A stretch of DNA of 35,171 bases from Clostridia bacterium (GTDB lineage: Bacteria; Bacillota; Thermoanaerobacteria; Thermoanaerobacterales; Thermoanaerobacteraceae), in contig DULG01000003.1 of assembly GCA_012840485.1 (NCBI GenBank), forward strand, positions 1 through 35,171, read 5' to 3'. Shown in pieces: positions 10,588-27,590 of the stretch; the first letter of the stretch is position 1, and each line of letters starts with the position of its first letter. The notes beneath the pieces were generated by a model. That model saw nothing but the letters and a program-made list of their open reading frames with translations, was not told where the DNA came from and searched no databases. The translations under genes and the position numbers were made by a program.

Positions 10588-10597
10588 TTAGTTAAAA

Positions 10598-10704
10598 ATA
10601 TGCCGAATCCCCGATAAGGGGTACGGGGGAACTAAATTGGGGTGAATCCACTTTTGTGGTAGGGTGTCCCTAACCCGAACCCGGCAACTAACCTCGGAGG
10701 CAAA
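10598..10704 (+). ncRNA. Cyclic di-AMP riboswitch (ydaO-yuaA class)
   Basis: The leader has the conserved blocks of this class in order: CCGAATCC, GGGGTACGGGGGAAC, TTGGGGTGAATCC, a variable hairpin (CCACTTTTGTGG), TAGGGTG, CCCGAACCCGGC and CTAACCTCGGAGGC. These riboswitches sense c-di-AMP and usually switch the gene off when it is high; they commonly precede cell-wall hydrolase and potassium transport genes. Here it lies immediately before the ribosome binding site of a LysM hydrolase. I see no clear terminator between aptamer and gene, so control may act on translation. Confidence 0.9.
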
Positions 10705-10716
10705 AGGGGGAACAAC

Positions 10717-11520
10717 ATGTTTAATATTTGCATCAAGGTCAAACCTCTCATCGCATCAGTTATAGCCGGATTGTTTATTTCCCAATCAGTATTTGCCGCA
10801 ACTTACACAGTTAAACCCGGCGATACCTTATGGGGTATAAGTCAAAAATACGGGACTACCTACACAAAATTAATGGCTTTAAACGGACTTCAAAATACAA
10901 TAATATATCCAGGGCAAGTTTTACAAGTGCCGGGCAGTGATAACACATATGTTGTCCAAAAAGGTGACAGCTTGTACTTAATTGCTTTAAAATACGGTAT
11001 TACTGTTGATATGCTCAAATCTGCAAACGAATACAAAAGCGACATAATATATCCTGGACAAGTCTTTATTATACCCCGTGATACTTCTTCTAATAGAACA
11101 TATCAGGATGTCAGCAGAGGTTCTATTGAAAGGAGTGTAATACCCTACACAAAAGAGGAATTTGACCTCCTTGCGCGACTTGTTACCGCGGAAGCAGATG
11201 GAGAACCCTACCAGGCTAAAGTAGCAGTTGCGGCTGTAGTAATAAACAGAGTTAAAAGTGGTATTTTCCCTAATACTATAAAAGACGTGATATATCAAGT
11301 CGATGCATACGGAAATTACCAATTTACTCCTGTGTTAAATGGGTGGATAAATAGACCTGCCTCAGCTGACGCTATAAGTGCAGCAAGAGATGCGTTAAGT
11401 GGTGTTGACCCAACAAACGGAGCCTTGTATTATTTTGACCAAAGTTCTACTAATGCGTGGTTGTGGTCACTTCCTATAGCGGCAAGAATAGGCAATATGG
11501 TTTTCTGTTACGGCAGGTAA
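10717..11520 (+). CDS. Secreted cell wall hydrolase with two LysM domains and a SleB-like catalytic domain
   Basis: The 267-residue protein has a signal peptide (hydrophobic about 10-27, ending in FAA). LysM repeat 1 spans about residues 29-73 (YTVKPGDTLWGISQKYG) and repeat 2 about 75-119 (YVVQKGDSLYLIALKYG), for binding peptidoglycan. A hydrolase_2/SleB domain fills 140-267; its catalytic glutamate is expected in TAEADGEPY. SleB enzymes are spore-cortex lytic transglycosylases and CwlJ/SleB relatives also act on vegetative wall, so a role in cortex or wall turnover is likely but not resolved. The ATG follows AAAAGGGGGAAC, next to a c-di-AMP riboswitch, which ties wall hydrolysis to that second messenger. 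Confidence 0.92.
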   Translation: MFNICIKVKPLIASVIAGLFISQSVFAATYTVKPGDTLWGISQKYGTTYTKLMALNGLQNTIIYPGQVLQVPGSDNTYVVQKGDSLYLIALKYGITVDMLKSANEYKSDIIYPGQVFIIPRDTSSNRTYQDVSRGSIERSVIPYTKEEFDLLARLVTAEADGEPYQAKVAVAAVVINRVKSGIFPNTIKDVIYQVDAYGNYQFTPVLNGWINRPASADAISAARDALSGVDPTNGALYYFDQSSTNAWLWSLPIAARIGNMVFCYGR

Positions 11521-22996: not shown

Positions 22997-23229
22997 TAAT
23001 AAGTTTGCTATGATTTAAAAAATTTTTAGAGAAATTTCAAACTGCTAATCTAGCTTTAATTACACTATACTATATAGTATGAGAAAAACCCTGAAATGTC
23101 AAATACATTTTATTGAAGGATAGGTTTACAAGATAATTTTTTATTTGCGATTTTTACAATATGGATTATAATAATAGACAAATCAATGCAAACTTACCAA
23201 CAAACATTATAATGCAATGAGGTGTTGAA

Positions 23230-25704
23230 ATGTTTAACAAAGATGCAATGGAAAAAATAAAAAGTTCGGTTGTTGAAAAATTAAGAAATATGAATTTTGA
23301 TATAACAGAAAATTTAATAAAGGAAATAGATGAGTTACTTGTAGAAGCAGAAAGCTTGATAGACTATAAAGTACAGCAGGAAATATATGATAATTTTAAA
23401 ATAGACCAAAAAGAAAATAGAATAATTCTTAATGAAAAAGATTATCTGCTTGGCAAATATATTGTTAAAAGTTTGCAAAAAGCAGAATATATAGTTTTGG
23501 CAATTATTACTTTAGGAGAGAGGGTAGATAAAAGGATAAGCGATTATTTTTCTTGTGGCGATTATACAAAAGGACTAATTTTAGATACTATTGCAGGAGT
23601 TGTTCTTGAAAATTTGACAATAAATTTTTGGAATGGTTTAAAAGAAAATGCGCAAAAATACGGGAAAGGTATTACAGAAATTTTTTATCCAGGAAGCAAA
23701 TGGGATATAAAAAATCAAGCTGTTATTTTCAAAGTTGTCAATGCTTCAAGAATTGGAGTTAGTATCAATGAAAGTTTTATGATGACTCCTGAAAAAACGG
23801 TATCCTTTGTGTGTGGCATTGGAAAAGACTTAAAAAGCTGCGTCATGGGAACTAGTTGTGATGATTGTGAAATGGAAAATTGCGTTTACAGAAAATCTTC
23901 TGCAACCAAAGCCTATAATGTAACTGTTCATTTTAATGGAGAGACTAAAATGATTGCAGCAAAAGAAGGGGAAAATCTCTTTCGCCTTCTTGTCAAAAAT
24001 GGAATTTACCTTTCTAATTCCTGTGGTGGCAATCGCATTTGCGGTAAATGCAAAGTTATTTTAGGAGAAAAAAGCAATATATCCTCTGAAGAAGCGTATT
24101 TTCTGACACAAAAAGAAAGAGAAGAAAATGTCCGCCTTGCTTGTTTTGTTAATATTGACAGGGATTTAGAAGTTACTGTGCTTTATTATGAAGAAAAAGC
24201 CAATATATTGACAACGGAAAAAAGCTCTTTAGATGTTTCGTTAAATAGTCGAATTAAAAAATATGTAGTGGAGGTTTCTCCTCATACTTTAGAGGACCAA
24301 AGGGATTATGTAAAAAAGGTTTGTGATTTACTTGGAGGCAAAATAAAAATTTCTTTGAGTTTGGTTGGGATGCTTCCTCAAACTTTAGAACAACATGACT
24401 ACAAAGTAAGTTGTGCGGTGAGAAAAAATGAATTGATTTCTGTGGAAGACAAAGCTTTAAATGATAAGAATTTTGGCATAGCTTTGGACGTAGGTACAAC
24501 AACTATTGCTGCCTACTTGTATGATTTAAATCTGGGCAAACAAATAGATGTGTATTCCTGTTTAAATCCTCAAAGGGTTTTTGGGGCAGATGTAATATCA
24601 CGGATAAACTATACTATCACTGAGCCTTTAGGGCTATATAAAATGCACTCCGCTTTGATAGATAAAATAAATGAAATAATTGAGAGATTTAGTCAAAAAA
24701 ATTCTATCAGCAGGAATAATATATATGAGATTGTGGCTGTAGGTAATCCTACTATGATACATTTTCTTTTAAATATACCATGTAAACACATAGCCGTGTC
24801 TCCTTATGTGCCAACTTTTACGTCAAAAATGGAAATAAAGGCAAAAGAAATAGGGGTAAATATAAACAAAGAGGGCTATGTAATTACATTGCCACTGGTG
24901 TCTTCTTATGTAGGAGCAGATATTGTAGCATCTATTTTGGCAAGCAAAATAGATAAATATCAAGAATTGTGCTTGCTTGTAGACATAGGAACAAATGGAG
25001 AAATGGTATTGGGAAATAAATATAACCTCGTGGCTTCGTCGGCAGCCGCGGGGCCTGCTTTTGAAGGTGCTGGAATAACTTTTGGAGTAAATGGCATAGA
25101 AGGGGCTATTGACCATGTAGATTTTGGTAAAAGACCTTTTTATACTACAATAGGTGATAAAAAGGCTAAAGGGATATGCGGTTCTGGCATTATAGATATC
25201 ATTTCTGAACTTTTAAAATACGGGATTATCGACAGTACTGGAAGATTTTTGCCTAAAGAAGAAGTTAAAAATTTGCCTATTGACATCGCGCAAAAGATAA
25301 CAGTTTACAAAGATGAGCCAGCATTTTTAATAGAAAATGGTATTTATGTAACTCAAAAAGATATAAGACAAATACAATTGGCAAAGGGGGCAATAATTGC
25401 AGGTATTAATATTATGATAAAAGAAATGGGTATAGATGTGAATGATATAAAAAAAGTATTTTTAGCAGGAGGCTTTGGAAATTATATTTTTCCACCAAGT
25501 GCAATCACAATTGGGCTTTTGCCAAAAGAGTTTGAAGGAAAAATTATTCAAATAGGTAATAGTGCTGGGATTGGGGCAATAATGGCATTGCTTTCTGACA
25601 AAGAATTAGAAAGAGCCACACAACTACAGAAAAAAATAAAGTATATAGAACTTTCTACTCACAAGGATTTTCAGCATGAATATATAAAAGGAATGTACTT
25701 TTAG
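23230..25704 (+). CDS. RACo-like corrinoid-protein reductive activator fused to a MetH-activation domain
   Basis: The 824-residue protein has three parts. Residues 1 to about 220 resemble the B12-dependent methionine synthase activation domain (AdoMet-binding): YPGSKWDIKNQ, SRIGVSINESFMMTPEKTVSF, and a cysteine group CDDCEMENC. Residues about 225-325 are a plant-type [2Fe-2S] ferredoxin with C265, C271, C274 and C305 (SCGGNRICGKC, ACF). The rest is the RACo-type region ending in an ASKHA ATPase domain (ALDVGTTTIAA at 418-428, LVDIGTNGEMVLG, AGGFGNYI). RACo proteins reduce inactive Co(II) corrinoid proteins at the cost of ATP. The fusion suggests a dedicated reactivator of methionine synthase. 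AGGTGTTG precedes the ATG; an ATPase gene follows after 28 bases. Confidence 0.88.
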   Translation: MFNKDAMEKIKSSVVEKLRNMNFDITENLIKEIDELLVEAESLIDYKVQQEIYDNFKIDQKENRIILNEKDYLLGKYIVKSLQKAEYIVLAIITLGERVDKRISDYFSCGDYTKGLILDTIAGVVLENLTINFWNGLKENAQKYGKGITEIFYPGSKWDIKNQAVIFKVVNASRIGVSINESFMMTPEKTVSFVCGIGKDLKSCVMGTSCDDCEMENCVYRKSSATKAYNVTVHFNGETKMIAAKEGENLFRLLVKNGIYLSNSCGGNRICGKCKVILGEKSNISSEEAYFLTQKEREENVRLACFVNIDRDLEVTVLYYEEKANILTTEKSSLDVSLNSRIKKYVVEVSPHTLEDQRDYVKKVCDLLGGKIKISLSLVGMLPQTLEQHDYKVSCAVRKNELISVEDKALNDKNFGIALDVGTTTIAAYLYDLNLGKQIDVYSCLNPQRVFGADVISRINYTITEPLGLYKMHSALIDKINEIIERFSQKNSISRNNIYEIVAVGNPTMIHFLLNIPCKHIAVSPYVPTFTSKMEIKAKEIGVNINKEGYVITLPLVSSYVGADIVASILASKIDKYQELCLLVDIGTNGEMVLGNKYNLVASSAAAGPAFEGAGITFGVNGIEGAIDHVDFGKRPFYTTIGDKKAKGICGSGIIDIISELLKYGIIDSTGRFLPKEEVKNLPIDIAQKITVYKDEPAFLIENGIYVTQKDIRQIQLAKGAIIAGINIMIKEMGIDVNDIKKVFLAGGFGNYIFPPSAITIGLLPKEFEGKIIQIGNSAGIGAIMALLSDKELERATQLQKKIKYIELSTHKDFQHEYIKGMYF

Positions 25705-25732
25705 GTATAATCAACAGTAGAGGTGTTTGTAT

Positions 25733-27433
25733 ATGACAAAAGAGGACCTTAAGAAAAAACTTGCCAAAATAGATGGGAAGGGATATAAAGCTTACGAAGA
25801 TCTTCAAGGTGAATATGTGTTTGAAAAATTTACACTATGTATTGACCACGTCCAGGGAGATCCTTTTGCGCCTCCTTCCAGAATAAGGCTTAAAGTGCCT
25901 CAAAGTATAGCCGGCTTTGAAGTTTCCATGTATAACAAACCTTCAAGGCAGGTTGCTTTAGAAGATTTTTTAACAAGGGCTGTTTTTGAGGTTATTAAAA
26001 AATTGCCATCTGTTAAAGGTACAGGACACAGTGGTGATATTTACATAGACAAAGGTGGCCAACAAATAATCAAAAGAAGTGCAATGGTAGTTAGTAAAGA
26101 TTATGTAGAGGCGAGATTAAGCATAGGTCTTCCTGCTTTTGGCAGACGCATAAATAGTAGTGGAGCCCAAAGAATACTTTTTGAATTTTTACCTCAAATT
26201 GTAGAAGAAGCTCTTTTAAAAAAGAGTCTAAATGTAAGGGATATATGGTTATGGGTGGAGACAGCAGAAGATCAGGATTATCTTAGAAGCAAGTTAAAAG
26301 AGAGAGGGCTTGTGGCTTTTGTTGCCGATGGATCAATACTTCCTAGAGAAAGCGGTATAAGCGACAAACCCCTCAAGGGTGACAATGTGGTGCCATTTGA
26401 ATCTCCAGCCAGTTTAAGAGCAGAGCTTCAACTTCCTAACCGTGGAAAAATAACGGGCATGGGAATACCACAAGGCGTTACACTTATTGTTGGTGGAGGC
26501 TATCACGGTAAGTCTACGTTATTACAGGCTGTTCAAAAAGGAGTATATAACCATATACCAGGTGATGGCAGAGAGTTTGTTATAACTGTAGCTGATGCAG
26601 TAAAAATAAGAGCGGAGGATGGCCGAAGGATAGAAAAAGTAGACATAAGCCCTTTTATAAACAATCTGCCCAATAAAATAGATACTACAAGGTTTTCTAC
26701 CGAAAATGCCAGTGGTAGCACATCACAGGCTGCAAATATCATCGAAGCAATAGAAATAGGCACAAGTTTACTGCTTTTGGATGAAGATACTTCGGCTACT
26801 AATTTTATGATAAGGGATACACGAATGCAAAAGCTAATTGCCAAAGAAGAAGAGCCTATAACTCCTTTTATTGATAGAGTGAAACAGTTGTATAAAGATA
26901 ATGGCATATCTACAATTTTAGTTATGGGAGGCAGTGGGGATTATTTTGATGTTGCTGATTGTGTAATTAAAATGCATAACTACAGGCCGTATGATGTTAC
27001 GCAACAGGCAAAAAAAATTGCAAAAGAATTTAAAACCAATAGACAAGTTGAAGGGAATGTTGCGCCTGTAGTTATAAATCCAAGAATACCTCTTAAAAAG
27101 GGGCTTGAAATAAAAGGCAAAAAGATAAAATCAAAGGGCGAAGATACTATTAAATTTGGATACCAAGAGATTGAATTGAATTATGTAGAACAATTAGTAG
27201 ACAGAAGTCAAACAAACGCTATTGGGGAAATAATACGATATATGGCTGACAGATATGTGGATGAAAGAAGTAGTATAAAAGAAATATTAGAAAAAGTATA
27301 TCGTGACATAAATATCAAAGGACTTGACGTAATATCGCCTTTTTATGGTAAACATCCTGGTAATTTAGCTTTGCCCAGGCTTCAGGAAATAGCTGCTGCA
27401 TTAAATAGATTGCGAAGCTTTACTGTAAAATAA
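25733..27433 (+). CDS. Predicted ATPase of the ABC class (ABC_ATPase/MRB1590-like)
   Basis: The 566-residue soluble protein is not a transporter component. It has a long N-terminal region (about 1-215; HVQGDPFAPPSRIRLKVP), a Walker A variant GGGYHGKSTLLQAV, the segment TENASGSTSQAANIIEAIE in the place of the ABC signature, Walker B LLLLDEDTSATNF and a C-terminal domain (about 440-566). This is the conserved pattern of a widespread family of unknown role; the trypanosome member MRB1590 binds RNA. The ATG at 25733 is spaced from AGAGGTG; an in-frame TTG at 25727 is less likely. Being 28 bases behind the RACo-like gene, it is probably co-transcribed, but no functional link is known to me. Confidence 0.9.
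   Translation: MTKEDLKKKLAKIDGKGYKAYEDLQGEYVFEKFTLCIDHVQGDPFAPPSRIRLKVPQSIAGFEVSMYNKPSRQVALEDFLTRAVFEVIKKLPSVKGTGHSGDIYIDKGGQQIIKRSAMVVSKDYVEARLSIGLPAFGRRINSSGAQRILFEFLPQIVEEALLKKSLNVRDIWLWVETAEDQDYLRSKLKERGLVAFVADGSILPRESGISDKPLKGDNVVPFESPASLRAELQLPNRGKITGMGIPQGVTLIVGGGYHGKSTLLQAVQKGVYNHIPGDGREFVITVADAVKIRAEDGRRIEKVDISPFINNLPNKIDTTRFSTENASGSTSQAANIIEAIEIGTSLLLLDEDTSATNFMIRDTRMQKLIAKEEEPITPFIDRVKQLYKDNGISTILVMGGSGDYFDVADCVIKMHNYRPYDVTQQAKKIAKEFKTNRQVEGNVAPVVINPRIPLKKGLEIKGKKIKSKGEDTIKFGYQEIELNYVEQLVDRSQTNAIGEIIRYMADRYVDERSSIKEILEKVYRDINIKGLDVISPFYGKHPGNLALPRLQEIAAALNRLRSFTVK

Positions 27434-27501: not shown

Positions 27502-27590
<89 letters not shown>

Follow-up and report, generated by a model that had tools for sequence, protein, structure and literature searches.

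An 824-residue protein in which a methionine-synthase (MetH) activation-domain fold is joined to a RACo-type corrinoid activator is encoded by Thermoanaerobacter, a heat-loving anaerobe, and probably serves as the ATP-dependent reductive activator of the truncated MetH of the same cell. Its activation-type domain would dock on MetH, methyl-folate would remethylate the cofactor and AdoMet would probably not be used. The gene lies in a stretch of 35,171 nucleotides (the window), and the positions given below refer to the forward strand of this window unless stated otherwise.

The fused gene occupies positions 23230–25704 as a single open frame with an ATG start, and a sequence resembling a ribosome-binding site, GAGGTG, was read just 5′ of it at 23219–23224. 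A frame or assembly artefact was ruled out, since the open frame is uninterrupted in all 20 genomes of the family and a split form also exists. Four Pfam matches lie above their cut-offs: Fer2 (residues 234–305), RACo_linker (residues 335–408; 24232–24453), Raco_middle (residues 415–576; 24472–24957; 3.7e-59), which carries DVGTTT at residues 420–425, and RACo_C_ter (residues 579–823; 24964–25698; 7.2e-80), which corresponds to the C-terminal ASKHA domain and is also evident in the structure model. From Pfam, conservation and the structure model, the complete 2Fe–2S ferredoxin domain spans residues 234–322 (23929–24195). The initial annotation had placed an intact ferredoxin and an ASKHA domain in the chain; both are present, with the ligands C265, C271, C274 and C305 at exactly the positions named and invariant across 26 relatives. 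The best NCBIfam model for the protein is AcsV (NF040756), which scores 426.9 bits where 800 are required, and the protein is therefore a relative of RACo rather than AcsV itself. An AcsV acting on CFeSP was ruled out for this genome on the basis of this score and of a search in which no CFeSP was found over the cut-off, the model matching only MetH below threshold.

No riboswitch was found before the fused gene at the gathering threshold. An open reading frame of 568 amino acids at 25727–27433 (forward strand) starts 22 bp past the fused gene; no NCBIfam model matches it strongly, its product resembles an ABC-class P-loop ATPase, and it may form an operon with the fused gene. Elsewhere in the window, a c-di-AMP riboswitch (10591–10717, forward strand, 93.8 bits) lies directly 5′ of a 267-residue open reading frame starting at 10717, and a tRNA gene is located at 27505–27590 on the reverse strand (56.2 bits).

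The assignment of the N-terminal part (residues 1–198, about 200 in all; 23230–23823) required evidence beyond Pfam, because the Met_synt_B12 model (PF02965) scored 20.4 bits by hmmscan against a curated score of 25; a value of 25.5 bits was obtained in the genome search, in which neighbouring stretches were counted, and the curated score is reached by the relatives at loci L030, L132 and L133. Comparison of the N-terminal part with TM0269 (PDB entry 1j6r) using phmmer gave an E-value of 1.7e-4, and a profile of 60 relatives matched 1j6r with an E-value of 3.4e-34, as well as the Thermus and E. coli MetH activation domains of known structure. A structure model of this part (pLDDT 92.5) has TM0269 as its top structural match (Z 19.5 over 186 residues at 2.4 Å), followed only by solved MetH activation domains, such that 1j6r, 8ssd, 1msk and 6bm5 span Z 14–19.5 and the next unrelated fold drops to Z 7.0. 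In the full-length model, RACo (Z 44.5), TM0269 (Z 19.0) and 2Fe–2S ferredoxins each match a stretch of their own. The N-terminal domain is thus of the methionine-synthase activation-domain fold, and the fusion of such a fold with a RACo-type activator in one chain, as initially annotated, is confirmed by Pfam, profile and structure model together.

The end of the activation domain carries a CxxCx4-5C motif, conserved to 90% or more across 60 domains, both fused and stand-alone, and absent from E. coli MetH and TM0269. In the fused protein it takes the form CxxCx4C, with C210, C213 and C218 (23857–23883), and may be a metal or Fe–S site, although the model is of low confidence there. C204 was ruled out as a fourth ligand of this motif, as it is not conserved in relatives.

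The genome (2.65 Mb, rated 100% complete) offers few other partners. Whether its MetH carries an activation domain of its own had been set beforehand as a check on the proposal: the sole MetH is a protein of 807 amino acids that ends after the B12 domain and lacks an activation domain, consisting only of S-methyl_trans, Pterin_bind, B12-binding_2 and B12-binding (the homocysteine, folate, cap and cobalamin domains). Its gene adjoins metF downstream of a SAM riboswitch. The fused protein is both the sole Met_synt_B12 match and the sole RACo match of the genome; no second activation domain and no MetE were found elsewhere in it. Since none of these, nor a CFeSP, was found, MetH is the likely target of the fusion; a cell with such a truncated MetH needs a reactivator, and the fused protein is the only candidate visible in the genome. 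Truncated MetH and the fusion occur together in all 20 genomes of the family.

The mechanism that we propose comprises four steps. The N-terminal activation-type domain would dock on the cobalamin domain of MetH, as the activation domain does in cis elsewhere; in the reactivation state of MetH, this domain lies over the cobalamin domain (PMC10567725). The ferredoxin domain would then accept an electron from a low-potential donor, and ATP hydrolysis by the ASKHA domain would drive the step from Co(II) to Co(I), in the manner of RACo and of the O-demethylase activating enzyme, whose ATP-driven corrinoid reduction has been measured (PMC6739815). Finally, methyltetrahydrofolate would remethylate Co(I) at the folate domain of MetH, probably without the use of AdoMet.

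It had initially been suggested that one chain performs both the reduction and, coupled to it, the methylation of MetH by AdoMet; this coupling was not supported. Two residues of the solved activation domain contact AdoMet, Arg1134 by binding the ribose and Tyr1139 by stacking on the adenine (PMC1282579), and the human variant P1173L impairs reductive methylation, its neighbour R1172 contacting AdoMet in a model (PMC12272874). At the place of this RxxPGY motif the fused protein reads I-F-Y-P-G-(gap)-S-K-W (residues 151–158; 23680–23703), so that Ile151 stands at the equivalent of Arg1134 and a one-residue gap at that of Tyr1139. Of the AdoMet contacts, which also include Asp946 and Glu1101, the comparison of relatives covered these two residues. 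All 41 dereplicated MetH-linked domains with no RACo nearby retain the pair, whereas none of the 31 RACo-linked domains retains both, in a count for which the flanks of some loci were only 1.5 kb; Tyr is missing from every RACo-linked domain, while Arg is present in some. Furthermore, 33 of the 41 genomes bearing the motif are without any RACo, and all ten genomes with a domain in another context that lacks the intact motif have a RACo elsewhere. When the motif columns were excluded from the tree, this difference mapped to a single change; either motif state may be the older one, and the pattern points to two old subfamilies, one AdoMet-type and one RACo-associated, rather than to repeated parallel loss. 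The link between motif and RACo is consequently not independent evidence for lost AdoMet use, and the contrast of 41/41 with 0/31 was dropped as strong independent support: one change on the tree suffices for it, and Fisher p-values overstate it.

From the residues at these positions, AdoMet binding by the N-terminal domain is doubtful after the loss of two contacts, yet possible. A protein in which this domain still binds AdoMet through altered contacts, and couples ATP-driven reduction to AdoMet methylation of MetH, would share its fold with AdoMet-binding activation domains, including TM0269, and the PG of the motif and the C-terminal strand motif are indeed retained in the fused domain, as is Arg in some relatives. 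Such coupling is nevertheless unlikely, given the two missing equivalents and the pattern of Tyr across the RACo-linked and MetH-linked domains. Energetics also argue against it. The reduction of Co(II) alone is uphill, which is why E. coli requires AdoMet; an ATP-driven reductant would have no need for AdoMet as a thermodynamic pull, and replacement of that pull by ATP would fit the degraded motif. ATP-driven reduction followed by remethylation with methyl-folate remains the preferred reading for the fused protein. For the subfamily as a whole, it is quite possible, and is put forward here tentatively, that an activation domain without AdoMet binding, whether given up or never possessed, became a docking adaptor that passes corrinoid proteins, MetH included, to an ATP-driven electron pump, MetH being reactivated by ATP and methyl-folate instead of AdoMet.

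Gene neighbourhoods bear on the choice of target. Every one of the 20 family genomes has the fusion, as does one of the two genomes from the sister family; the other has the same parts as two adjacent genes. One family further out in the class, RACo is stand-alone, MetH is in separate pieces and there is no Met_synt_B12 match. Across the phylum, an activation domain is present in 196 of 398 genomes, mostly as a stand-alone gene, and in the loci that were read metH is usually the immediate neighbour of such a gene. Another family also has the fusion (L132 and L133), and two genomes (L130 and L131) carry a shorter, divergent fusion with the same domain composition, separated by 4 bp from the metH gene that follows. 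In genome G234 (L148), the activation-domain gene, metH and the RACo gene form a run in which the reading frames overlap, a natural counterpart of the fusion in three genes, and a split run of activation-domain and RACo genes occurs in L030. These runs and fusions link the three parts in function in several lineages.

Fused or split copies are also found beside MtaC-type corrinoid proteins, in one case with a UroD-type methyltransferase (L094, L095, L096, L154 and L155), T. wiegelii and the sister family being among those with such neighbours; taken as a whole, the activators are therefore not confined to MetH. These copies would suit a general activator of any MtaC- or MetH-type protein, for which MetH is merely the partner left in this genome. 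However, MetH is the sole B12-binding_2 protein here, the divergent fusions stand directly upstream of metH, and L098, a locus with Wood–Ljungdahl-type genes, keeps a separate RACo beside those genes in addition to a fused gene, which suggests a division of labour; a general role for the present protein is accordingly judged rather improbable. That MetH is reactivated otherwise, by flavodoxin or low-potential ferredoxin directly, and that the fusion activates some unrecognised corrinoid enzyme is very improbable: in its favour, this genus keeps the fused gene apart from metH and the genome has three further weak B12-binding matches, but all three lack a B12-binding_2 domain, and no second activation domain was found in the genome. 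Activation of MetH remains the favoured assignment.

Two further observations concern these neighbourhoods. At L094 (genome G009, Thermoanaerobacter wiegelii, 2132000–2150000), two further, broken copies of the activation-domain–RACo gene flank the genes for a corrinoid protein and a UroD-family methyltransferase, and a transposase gene is located nearby. In addition, a distinct activation-domain subfamily reads PGHSYW where the AdoMet motif would stand (L154, L155, L156, L158 and L161); some members lie beside RACo and corrinoid-protein genes, and the subfamily, easily misnamed as methionine-synthase activation domains, probably belongs to methyltransferase systems.

The papers that were searched contain no description of the fusion, of the metH gene run or of the split between activation domains with the AdoMet motif and those linked to RACo. 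The initial statement that no experimental description was known therefore holds for the fusion, but it does not extend to RamA-like reactivators of MetH, for which fitness evidence exists (PMC5764234); the function itself is not new. Textbook reactivation of MetH relies on AdoMet chemistry, and a fusion that is driven by ATP and has a degraded motif would, if correct, represent a second energetic solution, with ATP instead of AdoMet, and would show the role of the activation domain when it is not methylating. It would also fill a gap in the methionine synthesis of industrial thermophiles. The motif pattern suggests a candidate rule for annotation, in which the presence of RxxPGY denotes an AdoMet-type activator and its absence together with RACo an ATP-type activator.

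Four known systems can be compared with the fused protein. The O-demethylase activating enzyme of Acetobacterium dehalogenans reduces Co(II) with ATP through an Fe–S domain, as the fusion would; it serves the corrinoid proteins of O-demethylase, and the description consulted mentions no activation domain (PMC6739815). RamA-like (DUF4445) proteins were inferred to be MetH reactivators from mutant fitness in Phaeobacter and Desulfovibrio, where they are cofit with methionine synthase (Price 2018, PMC5764234). As with the fusion, a RACo-type protein is paired there with a methionine synthase that lacks an activation domain; in Phaeobacter, no PF02965 member was found, so that the domain is absent rather than fused as here (PMC5764234). 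RACo itself, the activator of CFeSP (PDB entries 3zyy and 4c1n), shares the Fer2, linker, middle and ASKHA domains with the fusion, with 35% identity to 3zyy over the structurally aligned part (Z 44.5), but lacks an N-terminal activation domain, and its target, CFeSP, was not found in the genome of the fusion. TM0269, the stand-alone MetH activator of Thermotoga maritima (1j6r), has the fold of the N-terminus of the fusion, and both accompany a truncated MetH. It is reportedly AdoMet-dependent and keeps RISPGYGD, with neither a RACo part nor CxxCx4C, whereas the fusion combines an altered motif with a RACo part and the Cys motif.
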